From Nocardiopsis potens DSM 45234 (GTDB taxonomy: Bacteria; Actinomycetota; Actinomycetes; Streptosporangiales; Streptosporangiaceae): DNA of 64,000 nt. The notes beneath the pieces were generated by a model. That model did no database searches and was not told the origin of the DNA. It was given only the letters and a program-made list of their open reading frames with translations. Made by a program: the position numbers and the translations under genes. Within the stretch, counting starts at the first letter, position 1. Every line of letters begins with the position of its first letter. Below, piece by piece: positions 1-11,197 of the stretch. The stretch is from assembly GCF_000341105.1 (NCBI RefSeq), contig NZ_ANBB01000002.1:124001-188000 (forward strand), read 5' to 3'.

Positions 1-885
1 GCCTCGGCGGTGGTCGCGGGGCGCCGGTGGGCGCTCTGCGTCGCCCTGGGGCACGGCGTCGTCGACATCGCCGGCCGGGTGCTGCTCGGCCTGGACATCA
101 CCGCCGCGGTACCGCGCGGCGTGGTACTGCTGCTGCTGGCCGGGTACTCGATGGGCTACCTCGCGCACTACGCGCTCCGCGCCGAGCGGCGGCTCGCGGA
201 GGCGGTCGCGATCGAGGCCCGCACCTCCGAGCGGGAGCGGCTGGCCCGCTCCATCCACGACTCGGTGCTGCAGGTACTGGCGATGGTGAGCCGGCGCGGG
301 GCGGAGATCGGCGGCGAGGCGGCCGAACTCGGCCGGCTCGCCGGCGAGCAGGAGGTCCGGCTGCGCACCCTGATCAGCAGCGGCCCGCCGGCCCGGCCGC
401 CCGGCCCGGAAGGGGCCGCGCCCCCCGAGCAGGGGTGCCGGTCGCCGATCCGCCCCGGCGGGAGCGGCGGCCCCCCGTCCGGCGGCGGCGACCTGCGCGC
501 CGCGCTGGCCGGCTACGAGTCGTCGCGGGTCACCTTCTCCGCCCCGGCCGACCCGGTGCCGCTGCCCGCCGACGCGGTCGCGGAGATCGCCGCCGCGGTG
601 GGCGCGGCGCTGGCCAACGTCGAGCGGCACTGCCCGCCGGAGACCCGCGCCTGGCTCTTCCTGGAGGACGAGGGCGAGGCGGTCACCGTGACCGTCCGCG
701 ACGACGGGCCCGGAATGCCGCCCACCCGCCCCGCCGAGGCGGAGGCCCAGGGACGCCTCGGCCTCGCCCAGTCCGTCCTCGGCCGCATCCGCGACCTCGG
801 CGGCGAGACCGAGGTCACCACCGCCCCCGGCGAGGGCACCGAGATCGAGATGCGCGTCCCGCTCTCCCCGGACGCCCGGGGCTGA
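1..885 (+). CDS. MacS-like sensor histidine kinase, 5'-truncated by window edge
   Basis: The reading frame is open from base 1, so the gene begins upstream; 294 C-terminal codons are present. Visible in order: remaining hydrophobic segments of an N-terminal membrane sensor (to about codon 58), a dimerisation/phosphoacceptor helix with RLARSIHDSVLQVLA (H is the phosphorylated histidine), a Pro/Gly-rich linker, then an HATPase_c domain with a degenerate N box (NVERH), RDDGPGM, and a closing GEGTEIEMRVPL. The helix plus the sequence EAAELGRLAGEQEVRLRTLI is typical of the actinobacterial MacS (DUF5931) family, which works with a LuxR-type regulator. A MacR-like regulator lies at 16327-17040 on the other strand, so a partner exists but is not adjacent. 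Family call is from remembered family features; signal unknown. Confidence 0.85.
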   Translation, partial: ASAVVAGRRWALCVALGHGVVDIAGRVLLGLDITAAVPRGVVLLLLAGYSMGYLAHYALRAERRLAEAVAIEARTSERERLARSIHDSVLQVLAMVSRRGAEIGGEAAELGRLAGEQEVRLRTLISSGPPARPPGPEGAAPPEQGCRSPIRPGGSGGPPSGGGDLRAALAGYESSRVTFSAPADPVPLPADAVAEIAAAVGAALANVERHCPPETRAWLFLEDEGEAVTVTVRDDGPGMPPTRPAEAEAQGRLGLAQSVLGRIRDLGGETEVTTAPGEGTEIEMRVPLSPDARG

Positions 886-926
886 GCGCGGCCCCGGGTG
901 CGGCGCCGGAAAGACCACCGGGAAAG

Positions 927-957
927 TGAACCGCTCGGGGCGCGGCCGCTACGTACC
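927..957 (+). promoter_or_regulatory. ECF-type promoter P1 for ABC module 1
   Basis: TGAACC (927-932) and GCTACGTACC (948-957) are separated by 15 nt. The same two boxes occur at 9111-9141 before the ECF sigma gene and at 5944-5975 before ABC module 2. CTACGT ends 7 nt before the ATG at 962, which places the transcription start at or next to the start codon (leaderless mRNA). Confidence 0.75.
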
Positions 958-961
958 CGCC

Positions 962-1576
962 ATGGCGGAACCGGGCGTGTGGGCGTACGAGGCCGGGCGG
1001 GCCGGCCCGGCGGCGATCGCGGCGCCGGCCGGCATCGCGGTGCTGATCGCCGCCGCGACCGCCGGGGCCGGCATCGACCCGGGGCCGCTCGGGGCGCGGG
1101 GGGCCGGCGCGGTGGTCGCCCTGGCCGCCGGGATGGCCGCGGTCGCGGCGGTCGGGCGCGAGCACGCGCTCGAACTGCAGCTCACCCTTCCGGTCTCCTA
1201 CCGGGTGACCGTACTGCGCAGGCTCGCGCCGGTGGCCGTCGCGGCCCTGGCCGGCGGAGCGGCGGCCGCGGCCGCCGCGGCGGCGGGGCACCCCCGGGCC
1301 GGGCCGGCCGAGGCGGTGCTCGGCGCGTGCGGTTTCATCCTGCTGATGATCGGTGCCGGAGCCTGGGGAGCGATCCGCACGGGGTCGGCCGCGGGCGGTT
1401 CGTCCCTGGTGCTCGGGGTGTGGGCGGCGAAGCTCTTCCTCCTGGACCGGCTCGCCGGGCCGCCCGCCCTGCAGGCGGTGCTGTCCGGAGCCGGCGCCGC
1501 GCTGCTCGTCTGCCTCGCCGTGCGGCGGCTGGGCGACACGGAGGCGCTGATGGAGAAGGGGCGGCGGGACGGATGA
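962..1576 (+). CDS. ABC-2-type membrane protein, module 1 permease A
   Basis: 204 residues with about six hydrophobic segments rich in Ala, Gly and Val; no enzymatic motif. It is the first gene of a permease-permease-ATPase operon and overlaps the next gene by ATGA, so the two are probably translationally coupled half-permeases. A GTG at 926 would also open the frame, but it lies inside the -35 box of the promoter; the ATG at 962, 7 nt after the -10 box, is preferred and implies a leaderless transcript. Substrate not predictable. Identity as a permease rests on context and hydrophobicity only. Confidence 0.7.
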   Translation: MAEPGVWAYEAGRAGPAAIAAPAGIAVLIAAATAGAGIDPGPLGARGAGAVVALAAGMAAVAAVGREHALELQLTLPVSYRVTVLRRLAPVAVAALAGGAAAAAAAAAGHPRAGPAEAVLGACGFILLMIGAGAWGAIRTGSAAGGSSLVLGVWAAKLFLLDRLAGPPALQAVLSGAGAALLVCLAVRRLGDTEALMEKGRRDG

Positions 1577-2361
1577 CGGTGCTTTCGGCGCAGGGGGCGC
1601 TCGGCGCGCTGCGCTACGAGGCGTTGATGGCGGTGCGGCGGCGGATCCTCTGGTACGCGATGGCGCCGCTGTCGCTTCTGGCGCTGCTGGCGTCCGCGGC
1701 CCCGCCGGGCTCCATCGACGACGGCGTCCGGCACGCGGGGCACGCCGCGGTGGTGGTCGCGATGATCTGCGTGCCCGGAGTCGCGGTCGCACTGGCCGAC
1801 CGCCTGGCCGAAGGGACGCGCGCGGGCATGGGGGAGCTGCTCGCGGCCGCGCCGTACGGCGCGGCGGTGCGGCCGGCGGCGATGATCGCGGCGCCGCTGG
1901 GGGTCGCGCTGCTGCCGCCGCTGCTGGTCGTGCTCGGCGCCGGCCTCATGGGGGCGCTGGCCGACGGCGGACCCGCCCCGATCGGGGCGGCCCTGTTCGC
2001 CTTCTCCGTGGTCCTGCTGCCGGGGGCGGCGGCCGCCGCCGCGTTCGCCGCACTGCTGGGCCTGCTGATGCCGCCGGTCCTGGCGAGGACGGCCGCCGCG
2101 CTGGTCTGGTTCTGGAGCACCATCGCCACACCGCAGCTGAGCCCGGTGCCGACCCCCACGGGGACCCTGCTCTCCCCGAGCGGCGGCTACCCGGCGGCGG
2201 CCTGGGCGGGGCAGCCCGAGGTGCTGGCGCACAGGTTCCTGGACGGCCCGCTGAGCCCGCCGGCCGATACCGGGTGGGCTCTGGCCAACCTGGCGATCGT
2301 CGGCGGGATGGCGGTGCTGTTCACGGTCCTTTCCGGCCTGGTCGTCGCCGGGCGCCGGTGA
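1573..2361 (+). CDS. ABC-2-type permease, module 1 permease B
   Basis: 262 residues. It starts with a short cytoplasmic stretch (LRYEALMAVRRRILWYA) typical of the region before the first helix in ABC-2 permeases, followed by six hydrophobic segments. Starts by ATGA overlap with the upstream permease and ends 31 nt before the ATPase gene. Probably forms the membrane channel with its neighbour and exports or removes an unknown substrate. No binding protein is encoded nearby, which argues for export. Confidence 0.8.
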   Translation: MTVLSAQGALGALRYEALMAVRRRILWYAMAPLSLLALLASAAPPGSIDDGVRHAGHAAVVVAMICVPGVAVALADRLAEGTRAGMGELLAAAPYGAAVRPAAMIAAPLGVALLPPLLVVLGAGLMGALADGGPAPIGAALFAFSVVLLPGAAAAAAFAALLGLLMPPVLARTAAALVWFWSTIATPQLSPVPTPTGTLLSPSGGYPAAAWAGQPEVLAHRFLDGPLSPPADTGWALANLAIVGGMAVLFTVLSGLVVAGRR

Positions 2362-2392
2362 GCGGGAGAGAACGAGGGGCGGCGGGAGCACC

Positions 2393-3259
2393 GTGCACAT
2401 CGAGATCAGCGGACTGACCAAGGTGTACAAGGGCGGGCACCGGGCGCTGGACGGCGTCGACCTGCGCATCGACGGGGGGATGCTCGGCCTGCTCGGCGCC
2501 AACGGCGCCGGGAAGACCACCCTGATGCGCGTCCTCACCGGGACCGTGCGGCCCACCTCCGGCCGGGTCGCCGTCGGCGGCCACGATCTCGCCACCGGTG
2601 CCGGCCGCACCGCGGCCAAGCGGATGATCGGCTACCTGCCCCAGGAGCTCACCCCCTACCCGGACCTGACCGGCCGGGAGTTCCTCGATTACCTGGCCCT
2701 GCTCAAGGGGGTCGGGGGCAGGCGCGCGCGCCGCGCCCGGATCGACGGCCTGCTCGCCCAGGTCGGCCTGGAGGAGGAGGGCGGCCGGCGCATCGCAGGG
2801 TACTCGGGCGGCATGCGGCGCCGGATCGGCATAGCGCAGAGCCTGCTGGGCGACCCGCGCCTGATCATCGTGGACGAGCCGACCGCGGGCCTGGACCCCG
2901 AGGAGCGGATGCGGTTCCGCTCGCTGCTGGCCTCCCTGGGGCGGGACCGCACGGTCCTGCTCAGCACGCACATCCTCGACGATGTGGGGCAGAGCTGCCC
3001 GCACGCCGCGGTGCTGGACCGGGGGCGGGTGGTGTTCCAGGGGCGCACCGGGGAGCTGGCGCAGGCGGCCGCCGGGCGGGCCTTCGAGGTCCCGGCGGAC
3101 GCACCCCTCCCCGCCGACGCGGCGGTGGTCGGTGCGGCCGGCGCCGAGCGGCGCATCGTCACCGACGCCCCGCCGCCGGGCGCCCGCCCGGTCGCCCCCA
3201 CCCTGGAGGAGGGCTTCACCGCCCTGCTCCGCTCGGTCCGCGCCGGCGAGCGCCCCTGA
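2393..3259 (+). CDS. ABC transporter ATP-binding protein, module 1
   Basis: 288 residues with all nucleotide-binding motifs: Walker A GANGAGKTT, Q loop YLPQE, signature YSGGMRRR, Walker B LIIVDEPTAGLDP and the switch histidine in STHILDD. After the ATPase core comes a tail of about 70 residues ending in RRIVTDAPPPGARPVAPTLE. The same tail (RRIVTDTPPPAARPTAPSLE) ends the ATPase at 6640-7470, so the two are close paralogues although they sit in different operons. Start is GTG with GGGAG upstream. Confidence 0.93.
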   Translation: MHIEISGLTKVYKGGHRALDGVDLRIDGGMLGLLGANGAGKTTLMRVLTGTVRPTSGRVAVGGHDLATGAGRTAAKRMIGYLPQELTPYPDLTGREFLDYLALLKGVGGRRARRARIDGLLAQVGLEEEGGRRIAGYSGGMRRRIGIAQSLLGDPRLIIVDEPTAGLDPEERMRFRSLLASLGRDRTVLLSTHILDDVGQSCPHAAVLDRGRVVFQGRTGELAQAAAGRAFEVPADAPLPADAAVVGAAGAERRIVTDAPPPGARPVAPTLEEGFTALLRSVRAGERP

Positions 3260-3521
3260 CCGGTCCAGGAGACGGCGCCCGGCCGGTGCCCGGCGCACCG
3301 GGCGACGCCTCCCCGTGCCCGCCGTAGACCGGAAGGCCCGCGCCCCGGGCGTCCGGGCCCTGCCCTGCGGCCCGTCCAGGGCGCGGCCGCGGGAGCGGTG
3401 TCCGCGGAGCCGCCCGCCTCGTACGGCCGTCCCGGATGAACGCCGCCGCCCCGCCGGCCACCGGGAAGCGGCCCGGGGACCCGGCCGCCGCGGGAGGCGG
3501 GCCGCGGCGGCCGGGCCGGGG
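3260..3521. other. Gap between convergent ABC operons
   Basis: About 260 nt of very GC-rich sequence separating the stop codons of the module 1 and module 2 ATPase genes. No plausible gene. It holds several short inverted repeats, the clearest being the hairpin at 3481-3514. Confidence 0.6.
3481..3514. terminator. Hairpin terminator of convergent ABC operons
   Basis: Perfect 13-bp inverted repeat (CCGGCCGCCGCGG, 8-nt loop, CCGCGGCGGCCGG) just downstream of the stop codon of the minus-strand ATPase gene. It has no T-tract, which is common for actinomycete terminators. Confidence 0.6.
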
Positions 3522-4238
3522 TCAGCGGACCCCGGGAGAGGTCTGCTCGACCAGGGAGAAGAACCCCTCCTCCAGGTCGCCGCCGCGGGCCAGGCCGTCC
3601 AGCGGGCCCTCGTAGCGGGTCCGGCCGCGCACCAGCACCCCGACCCGGTCGCAGGTGCGGGCGATCTGGTCGAGCTGGTGGCTGGAGACCAGCACGGTCG
3701 AACCGGCGTCGGCCAGCCGCCGCAGCAGCGCGCGCACGTCCCGCATGCCGATCGGGTCGAGGCCGTTGGTCGGCTCGTCCAGGATGAGCAGCCGGGGACG
3801 GCCGACCAGGGCGATCGCGATGCCCAGCCGCCAGCGCATGCCCAGCGAGTAGGCGGCGGCCCGGCGGTCGGCCACCTGCTCCAGGCCCACCAGGGGGAGC
3901 AGCTCGGCGACGGCCGCCCCCGGGTCCACCCCGCGCAGCCGGGCGTGCGCGCGCAGGTGCTGCCGGGCGTTCAGCCGGGGCCACAGCCCGGGCCCGTCCA
4001 CCAGGGAGCCGATGCCGCGCAGCGAGTCCCGCCCGAACGGGCGGCCCGCCACCTCGATCGTCCCCGAATCCGGCACCAGCAGGCCGGACACCGACTTCAT
4101 CAGGGTCGTCTTGCCGGCGCCGTTCGGGCCGAGCAGGCCGTACACCTCGCCCTCGGGCACGGTCAGGTCCGCGCCGTCCAGGGCCCGGTTGCGGCCCAGT
4201 CGCTTGCCGAGGGCGCTGATGCGCAGTGCGGTGGGCAT
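3522..4238 (-). CDS. LanF/BcrA-like ABC transporter ATPase, module 2
   Basis: 238 residues. Walker A GLLGPNGAGKTT, signature YSLGMRWRLGIAIAL, Walker B LLILDEPTNGLDPIG and switch SSHQLD resemble lantibiotic-immunity ATPases (LanF) and BcrA. LanF proteins carry an E-loop in place of the Q-loop; the aligned stretch here, IGSLVDGPGLWPRL, has Asp at that position. It lies 1 nt after the upstream permease gene, with AAGGAG inside that gene as its ribosome site. With the two 267-residue permeases it forms a complete LanF-E-G-like set. No lantibiotic genes are in the window, so self-immunity is unlikely; defence against foreign peptides or another envelope-active compound is an inference. Confidence 0.9.
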   Translation of the reverse strand: MPTALRISALGKRLGRNRALDGADLTVPEGEVYGLLGPNGAGKTTLMKSVSGLLVPDSGTIEVAGRPFGRDSLRGIGSLVDGPGLWPRLNARQHLRAHARLRGVDPGAAVAELLPLVGLEQVADRRAAAYSLGMRWRLGIAIALVGRPRLLILDEPTNGLDPIGMRDVRALLRRLADAGSTVLVSSHQLDQIARTCDRVGVLVRGRTRYEGPLDGLARGGDLEEGFFSLVEQTSPGVR

Positions 4239-4239
4239 C

Positions 4240-5043
4240 TCAGATCTCCTTGCGGTCGACGTGGCGGGCGCCGACGGCGAGCAGCACCGCGGCGACCAGG
4301 ACGGACAGGGCGACCACCGCGGGCAGCACGGCGGTCGAGTGCAGCGGGTCGCCGGGCTGCAGCGGGACGCCGCTCGCCTCGACCCCGGCCAGCGGCACGA
4401 CGGCGCGCATCGGCCACACCGGGGGCAGCGCCCACCAGAACGGCGCGTCCCCGGCGAGGGCGGAGAGCAGCATGCCCGCCACCCCGGTCCCCGCGGTGGC
4501 GGCGAACCCCCACCGCTCCGCGACGGCGAGGCAGAGCGCCAGCGTCGCCGCGCCGCCCAGCCAGGGGACGAGCACCCCGGGCACGACCCGGACGGCCTCC
4601 TCCGGGGAGCCGAGCAGCACCGCCGCGGCGGACAGCAGCAGGATCAGCAGCGCGGAGCCGCACAGGCCGGCGGTGAGCAGCGCGGCGTACTTGCCGAGCA
4701 GCAGCCGGTGCCGGGGGAAGGCGTAGCCGTACATGATCCGGCGGGCGCCCCGGTCGGCGCGGACCGACGCGGCCGCGTACACCGCCGCGGCCATCGGCTG
4801 GACCGTGCCCCAGAACATCAGGACGACGCCGAACCACACCTGCCAGAGCGCGCCGGCCCGCCCCTCCGGGGAGGCCGCCGAGATCAGGCCGAGCGGCAGC
4901 ACGAGGACCACCGGGAGCAGCACGGTGAGCCAGAACGGGAGGCCGGTGCGGAGCCGGCCGAGCTCCACGGCGAAGACGGCGGCGAGCGACGGGTCGTCCC
5001 GGACCGGTTCCTGCGGTCCGGGGCGGGCGGTGGCGGCGGTCAC
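4240..5043 (-). CDS. MutG/EpiE-like ABC permease, module 2 permease B
   Basis: 267 residues, six hydrophobic segments, with the motif FWWALPPVWPMRAVVPL between the fourth and fifth, as in lantibiotic-immunity permeases (MutE/MutG type). It is homologous to the upstream permease, which has FPPAWPTRAAVPL at the same place; both are 267 residues, which suggests an ancient duplication and a heterodimeric channel. The GTG at 5043 is chosen because GGAGGAG precedes it; a GTG at 5091, overlapping the upstream stop as GTGA, is the alternative. Confidence 0.85.
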   Translation of the reverse strand: MTAATARPGPQEPVRDDPSLAAVFAVELGRLRTGLPFWLTVLLPVVLVLPLGLISAASPEGRAGALWQVWFGVVLMFWGTVQPMAAAVYAAASVRADRGARRIMYGYAFPRHRLLLGKYAALLTAGLCGSALLILLLSAAAVLLGSPEEAVRVVPGVLVPWLGGAATLALCLAVAERWGFAATAGTGVAGMLLSALAGDAPFWWALPPVWPMRAVVPLAGVEASGVPLQPGDPLHSTAVLPAVVALSVLVAAVLLAVGARHVDRKEI

Positions 5044-5087
5044 GGTCTGCTCCTCCTCGGAGGCGGGGGACGGGGCGGAGGGGCGCG

Positions 5088-5891
5088 TCACAGCGGCCTC
5101 CGGTCGACGTACAGGGCGGTGGCGGCGGTCAGCGCCGCGGCCAGCGCGAGCGCCATGCCGGTCAGCACCGGCAGCACGGCGGGGTCGGACATCGGGTGCC
5201 CCGGCGGGAAGAGCCCGCCGGGCGCCGGCGCCTCGGCGAGCGGGACGGCCGCCCGGGTCGGCCAGGCCGGCGGGAAGAACCACCACACGGACTTGTCGCC
5301 GAGCAGCGCGCCGAACATCGTGCCGGCGGTGCCGGCGCAGACGGCCCCGGCGATGCCCCACGCCTCGGCCGCGGCCGTGCAGACCACGAGCATCGGCAGC
5401 GCCGCGACCACCGGCAGCGTCCCGGCTGCGAAGGCGGCCGGGACGTCGCCGGGGGCGCCGTGCAGCACCGCGGTCAGCGCGGCGAGCGCGCCGAACAGCA
5501 GGCCGGAGCCGGCCCACAGCGCGGTGACCGCGCACAGCGTCCCGTAGAGCAGCCTGCGCCGGGGGAACGCGTAGCCGTACATCACCCGCTTGGCGCCGGC
5601 GTCGGTCTGCTGGGCGGCGCCCGCGTACAGCGCGGCGACGACCGGCGCGAGGACCGCCCAGCCGTACACGCTCAGGCCGAACCAGCGGCCGTAGACCGCA
5701 TCGCGGGTGGCGGCGGGCTCGGCCAGCACCGTCGCGGCCAGCACCCCGCCGAGCAGGGCGGGCGGCAGCAGGGTGAGCCAGAGGAACGGGGCGGAGCGGA
5801 ACCGGGACAGCGCGTCCGCGGCGATCAGGACCGCGGACGGGTCGTCCCGGGCGGTTCCGGGGGTCCGGCCGGGGGCTCGGGTGACGGGCAT
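5088..5891 (-). CDS. MutG/EpiE-like ABC permease, module 2 permease A
   Basis: 267 residues. Soluble N-terminus of about 35 residues, then six hydrophobic segments. Shares MYGYAFPR after the second helix (MYGYAFPRRRLLYG here, MYGYAFPRHRLLLG in the next gene). First gene of a three-gene operon read from the ECF-type promoter at 5944-5975. Start ATG has AAGGAGCG upstream, and the leader is about 50 nt, unlike the leaderless starts of the other two modules. Confidence 0.87.
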   Translation of the reverse strand: MPVTRAPGRTPGTARDDPSAVLIAADALSRFRSAPFLWLTLLPPALLGGVLAATVLAEPAATRDAVYGRWFGLSVYGWAVLAPVVAALYAGAAQQTDAGAKRVMYGYAFPRRRLLYGTLCAVTALWAGSGLLFGALAALTAVLHGAPGDVPAAFAAGTLPVVAALPMLVVCTAAAEAWGIAGAVCAGTAGTMFGALLGDKSVWWFFPPAWPTRAAVPLAEAPAPGGLFPPGHPMSDPAVLPVLTGMALALAAALTAATALYVDRRPL

Positions 5892-5943
5892 CGGGAGGCG
5901 CTCCTTCGTACTCCGCGCGGAGCCGGTGCGGCTCGCGGCACGG

Positions 5944-5975
5944 GGTACGTAGCGGGGCGGCCGGCGCCCGGTTCA
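5944..5975 (-). promoter_or_regulatory. ECF-type promoter P2 for ABC module 2
   Basis: Read on the minus strand: TGAACC (5975-5970), 16 nt, GCTACGTACC (5953-5944). Identical boxes to those before the sigma gene and before ABC module 1. Confidence 0.75.
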
Positions 5976-6639
5976 CTCCTCCCGCCGGAAGCCGGGCGCC
6001 CCCGCCGCCGAGCGCGGAGCGGGGGAGGCGGGAGAGGCCGCCGGGACGCGGGCGACCGGCCGATCAGGCCGCCGGACGGCCGCTCCGGCGGGGCGCCGGC
6101 CGGTGCCTCCCCCGCCTGCCGCGGGGAAGAGGCGGCGACCCCGGCCGGGGCGTCCTTGCCCCTCCGGGGAGGGCGGCGCCGCGGACGGGCGGCGGAAAGC
6201 ACGGTCCCTCGCCACGGGGCAGGCACCCGCACGCCCAGCGGTCTCCAAGGCGCGTCCGCCACCCGCCGGGCCTCGCCCTTCCGGGCCGTTCCCCGCCCAC
6301 CGCGGACGGGGGCACCGGGCGGAGGCGGGCCCGGCACGGGCAGCGGCCTCCTCGCCGCCGTGCGGCCGGAGGCCGTACGCGGACTCCCTGGCCCTGGGGA
6401 AGGCGATCCGATCCTCGGGGCGGGCGGCCGCCCGACGGCGTCCAGAGGGCGAGGCCGGGGTGGGGCGCTCCCGGGGCCCGGCCGCCCCCTTCGGACGCGG
6501 GGCACCGGGCGGCCGTGCGGCCGGAGGCCGTACGCGGAATCCCCGGCCGAAGGGAAGGCGGTCCGGTCCGCTCCCGGGCTCCGGCCGTTCCCCGGATCCG
6601 GGGCGCCGGCCGGCGGGATCGGGTGGGGCCCGGTGGGGG
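5976..6639. other. Non-coding gap with direct repeats
   Basis: About 660 nt of very GC-rich DNA between the P2 promoter and the stop of the module 3 ATPase gene. Open frames here are long on both strands only because of GC content; none shows a recognisable domain. It contains the 27-nt direct repeat listed separately. Confidence 0.6.
6357..6538. repeat. 27-nt direct repeat, two copies
   Basis: The same 27 nt, beginning GCCGTGCGGCCGGAGGCC, stands at 6357-6383 and 6512-6538 (period 155 nt). Similarity continues imperfectly for about 30 nt after each copy (GGGGAAGGCGATCCG versus AAGGGAAGGCGGTCCG). Each copy contains the palindrome GGCCGGAGGCC. Probably a dispersed intergenic element; function unknown. 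Confidence 0.7.
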
Positions 6640-7470
6640 TCAGGGGGTGTGTGCCGCCCGGAGGTCGGACATCAGGGCCGCGTAGCCGTCCTCCAGGGAC
6701 GGGGCGGTCGGGCGGGCGGCGGGCGGGGGCGTGTCGGTGACGATCCGCCGGTCGGGTGCGCCATCGGGGGCGGGGAGCAGGAAGACCCGGTCGGCGGCGA
6801 TCTCGGCGAGGCCGGCGGCGGGGCCGGTGTAGGCGGTCCGGCCGCCGGCCAGCACGGCCACGTCCGGGCAGAGCGCCGCGGCGTCGTCCAGCAGGTGGGT
6901 GGAGAACAGCACGGTCCGCTCCGCGCCGAGGCCGGACAGCAGGCCGCGCAGCCGGATCCGCTCCTCCACGTCCAGGCCGGCGGTCGGCTCGTCCAGCAGC
7001 ACCAGCTCCGGGTCGCCCAGCAGCGCCTGGGCGATGCCGACCCGGCGCCGGGTCCCCGCGGACAGCGCGCCGATCCTGCGGTCCGCCTCGAACACCAGGC
7101 CGAGCCGGTCCAGCAGCTCGCCGGCGCGGCGGCGGCGCTCCCGCGGGTCGTCGATCCCCTTGAGCAGGCCGGCGTGGTCGAGGAAGTCCCGCGGCGTCAG
7201 GTCGGGGTAGAGCGCGGCGTCCTGCGGCAGGTAGCCCAGGACGCGCCGGAGCGCCCGCCGCCCGGCCCGGGTGCGCAGGTCCAGGCCGCCGGCGCTGACC
7301 CGCCCGGCACGCACCCGGAGCACCCCGGCGAGCAGCCGGATCAGCGTGGTCTTCCCGGCGCCGTTGGGACCGAGCAGCCCGAAGACGCCCGGCCCGAACT
7401 CCGCGTCGACGCCGTCGAGCACCCGGCGGCGCCGGAACGAGTGGGCCAGGCCGCTGATCGCGACGTGCAT
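6640..7470 (-). CDS. ABC transporter ATP-binding protein, module 3
   Basis: 276 residues. Walker A GPNGAGKTT, Q loop YLPQD, signature LSAGTRRR (Gly-to-Ala-Gly variant of SGG), Walker B LVLLDEPTAGLD, switch STHLLDD. The C-terminal tail RRIVTDTPPPAARP matches the module 1 ATPase, its closest relative in the window. It lies 166 nt downstream of the anti-sigma/permease fusion gene in the same direction, so it probably energises that protein's membrane domain. The signature serine-glycine change could lower ATPase activity. Confidence 0.92.
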   Translation of the reverse strand: MHVAISGLAHSFRRRRVLDGVDAEFGPGVFGLLGPNGAGKTTLIRLLAGVLRVRAGRVSAGGLDLRTRAGRRALRRVLGYLPQDAALYPDLTPRDFLDHAGLLKGIDDPRERRRRAGELLDRLGLVFEADRRIGALSAGTRRRVGIAQALLGDPELVLLDEPTAGLDVEERIRLRGLLSGLGAERTVLFSTHLLDDAAALCPDVAVLAGGRTAYTGPAAGLAEIAADRVFLLPAPDGAPDRRIVTDTPPPAARPTAPSLEDGYAALMSDLRAAHTP

Positions 7471-7544
7471 GCGGCGGCTCCCGAGCGAGGTCTGCGGGGC
7501 CGGCCCGGCCCGGCCGCAGCGGCGCGGCCTCCCGGGGAGCCGGG

Positions 7545-7670
7545 CCCGGCCCCCTCCGGAAGGGCGCGCTCCCACCGCGGGGCGAGCCCGGGCCGCCCCC
7601 TTGGAAGAGCGCGGTCCTTCCGGGGCCGAGCCCGGCTCAGCCCTCCGGAAGGGCGCGGTCCTCCCGGGCG
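7545..7670. repeat. Three degenerate ~43-nt repeats at a gene end
   Basis: Three related units, centred on CTCCGGAAGGGCGCG, TTGGAAGAGCGCGGTCC and CTCCGGAAGGGCGCGGTCC, follow each other at about 43-nt spacing. The last unit lies inside the 3' end of the anti-sigma/permease gene and the others in the gap before the ATPase gene. They may be remnants of local duplication or pairing arms within the operon mRNA. Confidence 0.55.
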
Positions 7671-8557
7671 ACCAGCCGCGCCGCCCAGGCCAGCAGGGCC
7701 GCGGCGAGCAGCAGGCTCACCGGCCCGGTGGACCACACCGGGCCGATCGTATCGGCCAGCGGCCCCAGCGGTCCCCGGGCCGCAGGTCCCGCCCCCGCGC
7801 CGGCCGCCGCCGCGAGCGCGGAGGCCAGCCACGAGGAGGCGCCCAGCGCCGCGCCGACCGCCGGCGAGCGCCAGACCGAGCCGAACACGGCCAGCGCGGA
7901 CCCGAGCAGCGCGGGCCCCAGCCAGGACGCGGCCAGCACCGCGGCGTCCCCCGGCCCGCCGTGCACCAGCCCGGCCGCCAGCGAGACCGCGCCGGCCGCC
8001 GCCAGGTCCGCGCCGAGCACCAGGGCCAGCCGGGACAGCCAGACCGCCACCGGCGGCACCCGCATGGTGCGCATCGGCTCCATCCGCGGATCGCGCCGCG
8101 GCTCGCACGCGGCCAGCGCGCCCACCGTCACCACCAGGGTCGCCCCCGGCCCCAGGAACAGCGCGCCGAGCCCGGCGGACGGGGCCTTCAGCGCGGCGGC
8201 GAGCAGCACCGCGAAGCCCACCGCGGACAGCGGCCACAGCAGCCGGGGGACCATCCGGGCCTGCCGCGCCACCAGCCCGGCGGCCAGCCGCAGCGACGCC
8301 CGCGCGGAGAGCCCGGGGGCCGGCGCGGTGCCGCGCACGGGCCGCTCCGCGGCCAGGGCCGGGGCGATCAGCGCGTCGAAGGAGGGCGGGCGGGCCTCCG
8401 GCTCGGCCGCGCGCAGCACCGCGCCGAGCCGGGCGGTCCCGGCGACCCGGGCCGCGCACTCCGGGCAGCCGTCCAGGTGGCCGCGGGCGGCGGCCGCCAG
8501 ACCGCCGGGCCCGCGCCCGCCGGCCAGCCGGATCTGCTCCTCGTCGAGATGGGTCAT
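7637..8557 (-). CDS. Anti-sigma zinc finger fused to six-helix ABC permease-like domain
   Basis: 306 residues. The N-terminus has the zinc anti-sigma signature His-x3-Cys-x2-Cys (H27, C31, C34 in GHLDGCPEC), as in anti-sigma factors of the zf-HC2/ZAS type. A cytoplasmic linker (about 40-85) leads to six hydrophobic segments to residue 300. Most anti-sigma factors have one or no membrane helix, so the C-terminal half looks like an ABC-2 half-permease; the ATPase gene follows in the operon. It starts immediately after the sigma stop (no gap), typical of a co-translated sigma/anti-sigma pair. Inference: it holds the sigma factor at the membrane and releases it in response to a transported or membrane-active compound. 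Confidence 0.8.
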   Translation of the reverse strand: MTHLDEEQIRLAGGRGPGGLAAAARGHLDGCPECAARVAGTARLGAVLRAAEPEARPPSFDALIAPALAAERPVRGTAPAPGLSARASLRLAAGLVARQARMVPRLLWPLSAVGFAVLLAAALKAPSAGLGALFLGPGATLVVTVGALAACEPRRDPRMEPMRTMRVPPVAVWLSRLALVLGADLAAAGAVSLAAGLVHGGPGDAAVLAASWLGPALLGSALAVFGSVWRSPAVGAALGASSWLASALAAAAGAGAGPAARGPLGPLADTIGPVWSTGPVSLLLAAALLAWAARLVAREDRALPEG

Positions 8558-9106
8558 TCAGCTCACCAGCCCTCGGCGGAGCGCGCCGGCGAGGCGCGCG
8601 CGGGCCTTCGACATGCGGCTCTTCACGGTACCGACGGGGATGCCGAGCACTTCGGCGATCTCCGGGTAGGGCAGCTCCTCGACCAGGGCCAGGTGCACCA
8701 CTTCGCGGTGCCTGCGGGGGAGCGCGCCGATCGCGGTGAGGATCTCCCGGTGCCCGGCCGCGGCCAGCACCTCGGCCTCCACGTCGGCGCCGGCGTCGGC
8801 CGGGTCCGGGGCCTCCTCGCCGTCCAGGGCCACGGTGGCCGGCCCGGCCCGGCGCAGCCGGTCGTGCGCCTTGCGCCGGGCCACTCCGAGGATCCAGCCG
8901 CGCACCGAGGAGGCGCCGCGGAAGGTGTCCGCGGAGCGCCACACGGCGAGCCAGCTCTCCTGCATGATCTCCTCGGCGGTGCCGGCGTCCGAGGTGAGGC
9001 GGCGCAGCAGCCGCAGCACCGCCCCGGCGTGCCGGTCGTACAGTTCGCGCAGGGCGCCCTCGTCGCCCTGGGCGACGGCGGCCAGCGCTCGGCGGTCGGG
9101 ATCCAC
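8558..9106 (-). CDS. ECF RNA polymerase sigma factor
   Basis: 182 residues. Region 2 (about 15-85: LYDRHAGAVLRLLRR, IMQESWLAVWRSADTFRG, VRGWILGVARRKAHDRLRR) and region 4 (about 120-175: LPRRHREVVHLALVEELPYPEIAEVLG, then the helix VGTVKSRMSKARARL) make an ECF sigma. The frame is open to an ATG at 9142, but that codon lies in the promoter -35 box. The GTG at 9106 stands 7 nt after CTACGT, exactly as at gene 962, and is chosen. Followed without gap by its presumed anti-sigma factor. The same promoter motif before two other ABC operons marks them as its likely targets. Confidence 0.92.
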   Translation of the reverse strand: MDPDRRALAAVAQGDEGALRELYDRHAGAVLRLLRRLTSDAGTAEEIMQESWLAVWRSADTFRGASSVRGWILGVARRKAHDRLRRAGPATVALDGEEAPDPADAGADVEAEVLAAAGHREILTAIGALPRRHREVVHLALVEELPYPEIAEVLGIPVGTVKSRMSKARARLAGALRRGLVS

Positions 9107-9110
9107 GCCG

Positions 9111-9141
9111 GGTACGTAGCGGGCGGGGCGCGGAAGGTTCA
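9111..9141 (-). promoter_or_regulatory. ECF-type autoregulatory promoter P3
   Basis: On the minus strand: TGAACC (9141-9136), 15 nt, GCTACGTACC (9120-9111), ending 4 nt before the GTG of the sigma gene. ECF sigma genes usually carry their own promoter type, so this motif is probably what this sigma factor recognises. Confidence 0.77.
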
Positions 9142-9245: not shown

Positions 9246-9848
9246 TCAGGCCAGCGGCGGGCCCTGGCCCGGTTCCTCCTGGTAGGAGTAGCGCTGCTCG
9301 GACCAGGGGTCGGCGATGTTGTGGTAGCCGCGTTCCTCCCAGAAGCCGCGGCGGTCGCCGGTGAGGTACTCGATCGCGCGCAGCCACTTGACGCTCTTCC
9401 AGCCGTACAGGTGCGGGACGACCAGGCGGAGCGGGTGGCCGTGCTCGGGGGTGAGCGGGGCGCCGTCGCGGTGGGTGGCCAGCAGCACGCCCTCGGCCAG
9501 GAAGTCGTCCATCCGGACGTTGGCGCTGTAGCCGTACTCGGCCCAGACCATGACGTGGGTGGCCTCCGGCGCGGGGGGCGCCAGCGCGACCAGCTCGGCG
9601 GCGGGGACGCCGCTCCACCGCACCTCCGGCAGGGTGAACCTGGTCACGCAGTGGAAGTCGGCGACCACCTCGGTCCGGGGGAGGGCGGAGAACTCCTCCC
9701 ACCCCCACCGGTGGCCCCCGGCTTTCTCGGTCGCCCCGTAGACCCGGAAGTCCCAGCGCAGCGGGCGGAACCGGGGCACCGGGCCGTAGTGCACCGGCGT
9801 GTGGTCACGCGGGATGTACTGCCCCGGTGGCAGCCGCTTCTCCGGCAC
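9246..9848 (-). CDS. Sulfite oxidase-like molybdopterin oxidoreductase
   Basis: 200 residues, a stand-alone oxidoreductase molybdopterin-binding domain. Evidence includes the Cys in DFHCVTRFT (molybdenum ligand position in sulfite oxidase and YedY families), HVMVWAEYGYSANV, and GHPLRLVVPHLYGWKSVKWL near the end. No Tat signal is visible, so it appears cytoplasmic, unlike YedY/MsrP. The GTG at 9848 is chosen because GGAGGGG lies just upstream; a longer frame to 9887 lacks such a site. Substrate unknown. Confidence 0.85.
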   Translation of the reverse strand: MPEKRLPPGQYIPRDHTPVHYGPVPRFRPLRWDFRVYGATEKAGGHRWGWEEFSALPRTEVVADFHCVTRFTLPEVRWSGVPAAELVALAPPAPEATHVMVWAEYGYSANVRMDDFLAEGVLLATHRDGAPLTPEHGHPLRLVVPHLYGWKSVKWLRAIEYLTGDRRGFWEERGYHNIADPWSEQRYSYQEEPGQGPPLA

Positions 9849-9954
9849 TGTGTCCCCTCCGTCCGCCTCCCGCCATCCTGCCAGCACCCGCCGGCGGGCG
9901 CGCCGCGCGCCCCCGGTGTGACCGGCGCCGCATGGAACCGTCGCCGGTGTGCGC

Positions 9955-9960
9955 TATAGT
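9955..9960 (+). promoter_or_regulatory. -10 element of aroF leader transcript
   Basis: TATAGT ends 7 nt before the ATG of the leader peptide at 9968, so the transcript probably begins at that ATG. A -35 match is weak (TGGAAC at 9933-9938). Confidence 0.55.
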
Positions 9961-9967
9961 CGCTGCC

Positions 9968-10042
9968 ATGCAGCAGAGCTTTTGGCGCTTTTATGGCTAC
10001 CGGCCCATGGGATGGACGGTCGCCCGCCGAGCGCTGCTCTAG
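9968..10042 (+). CDS. Aromatic-residue-rich leader peptide of aroF
   Basis: 24 codons encoding MQQSFWRFYGYRPMGWTVAR followed by RALL. Six of codons 5-16 are aromatic: F5, W6, F8, Y9, Y11 and W16. A strong intrinsic terminator follows 18 nt after the stop and lies before aroF. This is the standard layout of a ribosome-mediated attenuator: stalling at Phe, Tyr or Trp codons would alter folding and let transcription enter aroF. Mixed aromatic codons fit a gene at the common entry to all three amino acids. Confidence 0.75.
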   Translation: MQQSFWRFYGYRPMGWTVARRALL

Positions 10043-10060
10043 ACGGACGAACCTCGAAAA

Positions 10061-10089
10061 GCCCCGGGCCGGAAGGCCCGGGGCTTTTT
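10061..10089 (+). terminator. Intrinsic terminator/attenuator before aroF
   Basis: Perfect 10-bp stem (GCCCCGGGCC, loop GGAA, GGCCCGGGGC) followed by TTTTT and preceded by AAAA. It is one of the few T-tailed terminators in the window and stands between a leader peptide and aroF, so it most likely acts as an attenuator. Confidence 0.85.
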
Positions 10090-10156
10090 CGTGGTCCCGG
10101 ACCGACGCCTCCACCGCCCGGTTCCACACACCCCGATCGCCGAAGGAACCCGAATC

Positions 10157-11197
10157 ATGGTCATCGTGATGGCGCCCGACGCCACCTCCGACAACATCGA
10201 CAGCCTGGTCGATCTGGTCGCCACCGCCGGGGGTGAGGCCTACGTGACGCGCGGCGTGAGCCGCACCATCATCGGCCTGGTCGGCGATGTCCGGCAGTTC
10301 GAGACCCTCGACCTGCGGGCGATGCCCGGGGTCAGCGACGTGCTGCGCATCTCCGCCCCGTACAAGCTGGTCAGCCGGGAGAACAACGCCGAGCGGTCGA
10401 TGGTGAGCGTGCGCGGCGTGCCGATCGGCGGCGGCCACAACACGGTCATCGCCGGCCCCTGCGCGGTGGAGACCCCGGAGCAGACCCTGGAGGCCGCCCG
10501 GATGGCGCAGGCGGCCGGCGCGGCGCTGCTCCGCGGCGGCGCCTACAAGCCGCGCACCTCCCCCTACGCCTTCCAGGGCCTGGGCGAGGCGGGCCTGAAG
10601 ATCCTCTCCGACGTGCGGGACGAGACCGGCCTGCCGATCGTCACCGAGGTGGTGGACGCCGCCGACGTGGAGCTGGTCGCCGGCTACGCCGACATGCTCC
10701 AGGTCGGCACCCGGAACATGCAGAACTTCGCGCTGCTCCAGGCGGTCGGCGAGTCCGGCCGGCCGGTGCTGCTCAAGCGCGGCATGAACGCCACCATCGA
10801 GGAGTGGCTGATGGCCGCGGAGTACATCGCCCAGCGCGGCAACCTCGACATCGTGCTGTGCGAGCGGGGCATCCGCACCTTCGAGAAGGCCACCCGCAAC
10901 ACCCTGGACATCAGTGCGGTGCCGGTCGCGCAGAACCTCTCGCACCTGCCGGTCATCGTCGACCCGTCGCACTCCGGCGGCAAGCGCGAGCTGGTCCTGC
11001 CGCTGACCCGGGCCGCGCTGGCGGTCGGCGCCGACGGCGTCATCATCGACGTGCACCCGCGCCCGGAGACCGCGCTGTGCGACGGCCCGCAGGCGCTGGT
11101 CGAGGAGGACCTCCCCGAGCTGCGGGACATGGCCTCCACGCTGACCGCGCTGCTCGGCCGCACCCTCAGCGCAGCGCCGCAGCCGCTGGCGGTCTGA
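10157..11197 (+). CDS. aroF: 3-deoxy-7-phosphoheptulonate synthase
   Basis: 346 residues. Catalyses the first step of the shikimate pathway, condensing phosphoenolpyruvate and erythrose 4-phosphate. An N-terminal ferredoxin-like regulatory domain (about 1-75) precedes the type I-beta barrel with GPCAVET, LLRGGAYKPRTSPYAFQG, and the C-terminal PSHSGGKRELVLP and IDVHPRPETALCDGPQAL. This matches Bacillus/Thermotoga-type AroF rather than the large type II enzyme common in other actinomycetes. ATG at 10157 has GAAGGA upstream. Expression is probably set by the leader-peptide attenuator at 9955-10089. Confidence 0.95.
   Translation: MVIVMAPDATSDNIDSLVDLVATAGGEAYVTRGVSRTIIGLVGDVRQFETLDLRAMPGVSDVLRISAPYKLVSRENNAERSMVSVRGVPIGGGHNTVIAGPCAVETPEQTLEAARMAQAAGAALLRGGAYKPRTSPYAFQGLGEAGLKILSDVRDETGLPIVTEVVDAADVELVAGYADMLQVGTRNMQNFALLQAVGESGRPVLLKRGMNATIEEWLMAAEYIAQRGNLDIVLCERGIRTFEKATRNTLDISAVPVAQNLSHLPVIVDPSHSGGKRELVLPLTRAALAVGADGVIIDVHPRPETALCDGPQALVEEDLPELRDMASTLTALLGRTLSAAPQPLAV

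Follow-up and report, generated by a model that had tools for sequence, protein, structure and literature searches.

The microbisporicin (NAI-107) cluster of Microbispora corallina encodes an extracytoplasmic function (ECF) sigma factor, MibX, along with the anti-sigma factor MibW and the transporter MibEF (PMC4973701). The MibX promoter consensus, GAACC-N15-GCTAC, is backed by reporter fusions, and MibW is allowed to respond to envelope stress in addition to the peptide, the manner of perception being left undecided in the accessible part of that report (PMC4973701). A related ECF sigma factor, PspX, is that of planosporicin in the available text of PMC6001450. The DNA analyzed here, referred to as the window, is a stretch of 64,000 nucleotides (nt) of Nocardiopsis potens DSM 45234 (contig NZ_ANBB01000002.1, positions 124,001 to 188,000). 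It carries genes for an ECF sigma factor, a membrane anti-sigma factor, a LanFEG-like peptide pump and a further ATP-binding cassette (ABC) exporter. This module is most likely a MibX/MibW-type switch that stands on its own and has been put to new use in resistance, with a lantibiotic as trigger; a probability of about 0.72 is given to this reading. Its features, in window coordinates, are:

927 to 957, forward strand, ECF promoter box of the permA operon, TGAACC-N15-GCTACGTACC, GCTAC and the ATG at 962 being 9 nt apart
962 to 1576, forward strand, permA1, a small ABC-2-like membrane protein (weak assignment)
1573 to 2361, forward strand, permA2, an ABC-2 permease, assigned by Foldseek and by Pfam matches of homologs
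2393 to 3259, forward strand, atpA, ABC ATPase of the permA operon (Pfam, NCBIfam)
3522 to 4238, reverse strand, LanF-like ATPase, best NCBIfam model TIGR03740 (lantibiotic protection ATPase)
4240 to 5043, reverse strand, LanE/G-like permease, TIGR03732 (MutE/EpiE), E-value 1.7e-20, below cut-off
5088 to 5891, reverse strand, second LanE/G-like permease, TIGR03732, E-value 1.7e-10, below cut-off
5944 to 5975, reverse strand, ECF promoter box before the LanFEG-like operon, with a 16-nt spacer; GCTAC and the first gene are 57 nt apart
6640 to 7470, reverse strand, atpC, ABC ATPase adjoining the anti-sigma gene (Pfam, NCBIfam)
7637 to 8557, reverse strand, anti-sigma factor, predicted cytosolic Hx3Cx2C zinc-type domain and six-helix ABC-2-like membrane domain
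8558 to 9106, reverse strand, ECF sigma factor
9111 to 9141, reverse strand, ECF promoter box before the sigma operon, with a 15-nt spacer; GCTAC and the GTG are 9 nt apart

The permA1-permA2-atpA operon thus spans 962-3259 and the LanFEG-like operon 3522-5891. Pfam recognizes all three ABC ATPases of the window, as well as sigma regions 2 and 4 in the sigma factor, which bears out its original assignment to the ECF type; the next best ECF sigma factor of the same genome is 40% identical. Like the mib system, the window combines an ECF sigma factor and a membrane anti-sigma factor with one promoter type shared by the sigma gene and an operon for a Lan-type immunity ABC transporter (mibE in the mib cluster, for MibEF). 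Unlike it, the window lacks class I biosynthetic genes and any further regulator gene with a box, and it has an ATPase gene next to the anti-sigma gene and the permA exporter as a target.

The original prediction placed identical boxes before the sigma gene, the permease-permease-ATPase operon and the LanFEG-like operon, and this is where the three TGAACC-N15/16-GCTACGTACC boxes of the window are found, with spacers of 15, 16 and 15 nt in window order. They equal the MibX consensus, with spacers of 15 at the permA and sigma operons but 16 at the LanFEG-like operon. In the 6.9 Mb genome the exact box occurs at three places, all in the window (backward control 0), while none of 100 dinucleotide-shuffled versions of the window held a match; a chance origin is ruled out by these shuffles and by the whole-genome count with its controls. 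A wider regulon in this genome was rejected for exact boxes, and the relaxed pattern TGAACC-N14..17-GCTAC gave six places against three in the backward control, the three extra ones equalling the control number and all lying within long open frames.

The most likely start of the sigma gene, judged from the sequence, is the GTG at 9106, and both this gene and permA1 (ATG 962) begin 9 nt downstream of GCTAC. Since this spacing matches the 8-10 nt by which the consensus precedes the mib transcription starts in the part of PMC4973701 available, the sigma and permA1 mRNAs are probably leaderless. With its own ECF box, the sigma operon appears to be autoregulated.

The anti-sigma query was run against 345 genomes of the order (E ≤ 0.001) and gave matches in 48 of them, many of these weak and five (G138, G161, G180, G256, G327; G numbers denote genomes, L numbers loci) covering only the first ~75 residues. 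Forty-one loci were then compared, consisting of up to 20 kb around 32 anti-sigma places (window included), six loci picked for holding a box (L063-L068) and three from another family (L168-L170). A loose box was taken as GAACC-N14..17-GCTAC within 150 nt upstream of a gene, with the reversed motif as control; matches below set bit-score limits were excluded, as were two genes at locus ends (LanF in L043 and permA2 in L049).

The layout of the module recurs across many relatives. The original prediction had turned on the boxes being conserved in orthologous loci, and there they are kept: a loose box lies upstream of 22/37 sigma genes and 11/12 permA1 genes, and all 21 LanEG operons have one upstream of their leading LanE/G gene (7/7 LanE; 14/21 LanG, the other seven standing behind LanE). 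By comparison, it was found at one of 28 permA2 genes (L032, where permA1 is missing) and at 0/30 anti-sigma, 0/27 atpA, 0/12 atpC and 0/20 LanF genes, and the reversed motif gave 0 for every gene. When the six box-selected loci are left out, the counts are 20/35 for sigma, 9/10 for permA1, 17/17 for LanEG operons (6 LanE, 11 LanG) and 1/26 for permA2. The strict box TGAACC-N14..17-GCTACGTA occurs at 44 places in 31 of the 345 genomes (backward control 8 places), 38 of these being in the 48 anti-sigma genomes and six in the other 297; it is absent from 23 of the 48. Four box loci (L069-L072) had no module gene and were omitted from the counts, their boxes being taken as chance. The promoter logic of the module has strong comparative support.

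The anti-sigma profile, run against 394 genomes sampled from the class, matched 11 (E ≤ 1e-6). Three of these 11, from another family (G595, G637, G534), encode the sigma factor, permA1, permA2 and an ATPase; boxes precede sigma and permA1, and no LanG match was present within the fetched stretches. LanFEG may therefore have been added to this four-gene core at a later time.

It is worth mentioning that in G002, whose anti-sigma factor is 90% identical to that of the window, a short frame (L031:5512-5650, forward strand) stands in place of the boxed permA1 before permA2. In G133, a genome of one contig, the anti-sigma gene is split across two reading frames (L047, about 9578-10529, reverse strand). 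A mirror-tree comparison of sigma and anti-sigma factors (15 loci; r 0.76 for the cytosolic and 0.87 for the membrane part) lacks a kinship control and was not used as evidence.

The LanFEG protection families are the best-ranked NCBIfam models for all three proteins of the LanFEG-like operon. LanF ATPases have an altered Q-loop, the E-loop; the LanF-like protein of the window has SLVDGPGLW where atpA and atpC have GYLPQ, so that the Q is replaced, but by D rather than E. NisFEG, EpiFEG and MutFEG, the LanFEG transporters of lantibiotic immunity, are resembled by the window ATPase and two permeases in their best matches to lantibiotic protection families. The window operon differs from these in its ECF-type promoter and in scores below the NCBIfam cut-offs for all proteins, while 14 of the 21 related loci have a single permease by homology.

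Sought independently of the box, LanG homologs (E ≤ 1e-10) were found in 23 of the 345 genomes, 22 of which have an anti-sigma match (Fisher 1.9e-20, uncorrected for kinship). The LanEG operons of 21 of these 22 are those of the box count, each boxed, and the last genome (G329) has a strict box ~97 nt upstream of LanG. The exception is G330 (L154), in which LanFE-type genes are clustered with LanB and LanC, the sigma match is only 28% and no GAACC-N14..17-GCTAC box was found in the LanB/LanC cluster. In three genomes the LanEG-F operon and the sigma gene are separated, being on different contigs in G002 and ~31 kb and ~41 kb from each other in G098 and G298 (loci L063, L064 and L066). Since these distant operons keep the box, one sigma factor probably serves these promoters; this is the best comparative evidence for it, and the LanFEG-like operon appears to belong to the sigma regulon.

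This cross-genome placement of the boxes supports the single autoregulated ECF regulon of three operons, LanFEG-like pump included, that had been proposed for the window. The accompanying idea of three efflux systems holds in part: the sigma operon is better read as a sensor with an ATPase than as a pump, which leaves the permA exporter and the LanFEG-like pump.

Of the 41 module loci, three gave LanB matches (L050, L051, L034), as did all 40 control loci; this search gave no match in the window. In L050 (G239) and L051 (G250), LanB is divergent from the sigma gene and is adjoined by a precursor resembling NAI-107 microbisporicin (in L050, for example, 7797-7988, reverse strand), with a boxed permA1-permA2-atpA operon on the other side of LanB. 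Pfam confirmed LanB (542 bits) and LanC in L050. Compared with the NAI-107 sequence in the accessible part of PMC10715042, the L050 precursor core is the same at 19 of 24 residues, the last residue being omitted. The sigma factors of the window and L050 are 62% identical over 173 residues, and the membrane parts of their anti-sigma factors 43% over 218 columns. In L034 (G106), a flavoprotein gene (read as lanD), lanC and a 406-residue N-part of LanB come after the module. The LanB frame of this locus (L034:13996-17343, reverse strand) covers the first 350 of 649 model positions and is truncated or interrupted.

Because homologous sigma and anti-sigma factors in G239 and G250 adjoin LanB and a microbisporicin-like precursor, a related system has already been described, and the original statement that no system of this layout was known falls, the box itself being the MibX promoter consensus. 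The lantibiotic link of the module has good support from these comparisons. That the box is a general trait of lantibiotic clusters found no support: 39 LanB loci gave four loose boxes, none extending to GCTACGTAC, and no sigma factor of this type. The original mib cluster was not found in these 39 loci, a partial look given that LanB is present in 192 of 342 genomes.

The anti-sigma gene lies directly 3′ of the sigma gene. The original prediction of a zinc anti-sigma domain joined to a permease-like membrane part agrees with an Hx3Cx2C motif (H27, C31, C34) that is invariant in 16 of 16 aligned homologs, chosen for clear gene limits, and with six membrane helices in the AlphaFold model (16 sequences; mean predicted local distance difference test score, pLDDT, 83; predicted template modeling score, pTM, 0.65). 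In a profile search of PDB sequences up to E 1, the only three matches were to RsiW and ChrR and were weak (E 0.17-0.26). The modeled N-terminal part, presumably on the cytosolic side, has helices at 6-15, 22-30, 32-51 and 60-71. It is followed by a helix at 85-102, membrane helices at 107-124 and 128-151, a short helix at 161-164 (low confidence at 157-159), helices at 169-199, 202-229 and 232-254, a short one at 265-275 and the last at 279-297. ABC-2 (type V) permeases have six helices, an elbow helix, a short coupling helix and a short helix before helix 6. The model matches this layout, with the coupling helix after helix 2.

Foldseek placed PmtCD and NosY at the head of the anti-sigma matches (probability 0.96-0.99), the names of the first 13 being those of ABC transporters or efflux pumps and unrelated membrane proteins standing lower in the list. 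These leaders are shared with permA2, modeled likewise (pLDDT 90, E 0.006). Pfam detected ABC2_membrane_3 in two of the 16 anti-sigma homologs (best E 1.3e-4), ABC2_membrane_2 in one of seven aligned permA1 homologs (E 0.0054), and the ABC2 families in up to four each of 19 aligned permA2 homologs; it gave no family to permA1 or permA2 of the window. Alignment of the anti-sigma and permA1 profiles by hhalign was weak (probability 33%), and the possibility that the membrane part is a copy of permA2 or LanEG was negative in profile comparison. The loop after helix 2, a stretch which contacts the ATPase in ABC-2 permeases, is strongly conserved, with P153, R155, P157, P169, V172, W173, R176 and L177 invariant in the 16 homologs. 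A fusion of a zinc domain with an ABC-2 domain is likely, and it may have transport activity. In the literature, where coverage of subscription papers was thin, no paper on a zinc anti-sigma/ABC-2 fusion stood out, and an earlier description is possible.

In the mechanism proposed, the anti-sigma factor would use its zinc-type domain to keep the ECF sigma factor at the membrane at rest, and its membrane domain, of ABC-2-exporter-like fold, probably pairs with the adjoining atpC. A lantibiotic or similar peptide acting on a cell-wall precursor, or the damage which it causes, would change the ABC-2-like part, upon which the anti-sigma domain would free the sigma factor. The latter would then drive the GAACC-N15/16-GCTAC promoters of its own operon (as positive feedback), of the LanFEG-like peptide pump and of the permA1-permA2-ATPase exporter. 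Comparison of loci shows that one promoter type stands before three operons and is conserved, and it links the module to LanFEG and to lantibiotic clusters; the fusion is shown less firmly. We infer direct recognition by this sigma factor, inhibition by the anti-sigma factor, the inducer, transport and the release step, the last by analogy with MibX/MibW.

Several points weigh against reading the module as a relative of the MibX/MibW switch for lantibiotic resistance. All three LanFEG-like proteins are under the curated NCBIfam cut-offs, the LanF-like ATPase with 218.1 bits against 309.75 for TIGR03740 and the permeases with 73.4 and 40.7 against 145.2. For the anti-sigma factor, Foldseek gave nothing below E 0.001 (best PmtCD, probability 0.99, E 0.21, TM-score 0.43), and Pfam gave no family, ABC2_membrane_3 included, to the window protein. 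The loose box is missing at 15 of 37 sigma genes; four of these stand behind same-strand LanGF (L038, L041, L042, L043), five weak relatives have a GAACC...GTACC variant (L052, L054, L055, L060, L061) and six have no clear box (L040, L045, L046, L050, L051, L053), the microbisporicin-like clusters of G239 and G250 being among the latter. The anti-sigma N-terminus in these two clusters has no Hx3Cx2C, which the window protein retains. Kinship to MibX/MibW is drawn from the promoter consensus and the G239/G250 homologs, not from the MibX and MibW sequences. Finally, as a LanM-like protein is encoded on contig C8, the cell may itself make another lanthipeptide.

How the sigma factor would be released admits two readings of the six-helix domain. 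It is conceivable, at somewhat less than even odds, that the anti-sigma factor also serves an ABC exporter as its membrane half, the zinc domain holding the sigma factor, the ABC-2 domain working with atpC, and the transport cycle or bound peptide setting release. If true, the state of transport would be passed directly to RNA polymerase, with neither kinase nor protease. The domain may also, at about the same odds, be a mere anchor or stress sensor without transport, the ATPase serving another permease and the sigma factor being freed by regulated proteolysis, the most frequent release route of membrane-bound anti-sigma factors according to the part of PMC8103513 available. An atpC-type ATPase in 12 loci against 30 anti-sigma matches fits such an anchor, as do the weak similarity to permA1, the lack of any to permA2 and LanEG and the non-significant Foldseek E-value, whereas the candidate ATPase contact after helix 2 is among the most conserved parts of the anti-sigma factor.

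Two other arrangements bear comparison. BceAB-BceS modules are transporter-sensor modules of Firmicutes; the window likewise has a candidate transporter that also carries a signal, with antimicrobial peptide as input, but its predicted output is an ECF sigma factor held by a membrane-fused domain and not a histidine kinase. Bacillus subtilis sigY-yxlCDEFG similarly unites an ECF sigma factor, inhibitor(s) and an ABC transporter in one operon, its inhibitors being small and its permease a protein separate from the inhibitor.

The same circuit could be a general envelope-stress module, induced by any membrane or cell-wall damage and with pumps for lipids or diverse peptides. LanFEG is the sole pointer to lantibiotics in the window, and in more distant relatives (e.g., L052, L054-L058, L060-L062, L168-L170) the fetched stretches hold sigma, permA2 and ATPase genes but no LanFEG. 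Such stress is also among the signals allowed for MibW in the available text of PMC4973701. However, 22 of the 23 LanG genomes have an anti-sigma match and three module loci adjoin lantibiotic genes, and we consider a general stress module rather unlikely.

In its own genome, which is 99.44% complete, the module stands without class I lantibiotic genes. The class I dehydratase domain Lant_dehydr_N gave no match there at E ≤ 0.001 (control genomes silent) or at E ≤ 1e-20, whereas the search at the latter threshold did match 192 of 342 genomes. There is one LanC-domain protein with a DUF4135 part (L177, C8:89202-90254, reverse strand; DUF4135 and LANC_like), which we take to be a LanM-like class II lanthipeptide synthetase, and no box was found in the 4 kb stretch of its gene. 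Self-immunity for a lanthipeptide of the strain, as a relic of a lost class I cluster or in the service of the LanM-type cluster on C8, would suit this protein and the modules which adjoin lanB, lanC and a lanD-like gene in L034 and lie in two microbisporicin-like clusters, but is improbable given the missing class I dehydratase, a LanM locus on another contig whose stretch is boxless, and the exact box occurring nowhere outside the window.

The lantibiotic-triggered resistance module suggested here would mean that a switch of lantibiotic production is used for resistance in a strain that lacks class I lantibiotic genes. A compact, conserved module with an ABC-2-like anti-sigma factor and an ATPase also offers a testable answer to how MibW-type anti-sigma factors perceive a lantibiotic. 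The box pattern can mark such modules in genomes, and sometimes lantibiotic clusters nearby.

Between the LanFEG box and atpC there is an imperfect direct repeat of 115 nt with 71% identity (window 6300-6414 and 6455-6569). A partial sensor histidine kinase gene enters the window from its edge (1-885, forward strand), and its counterpart also lies 5′ of the permA operon in G002 (93%, L031).

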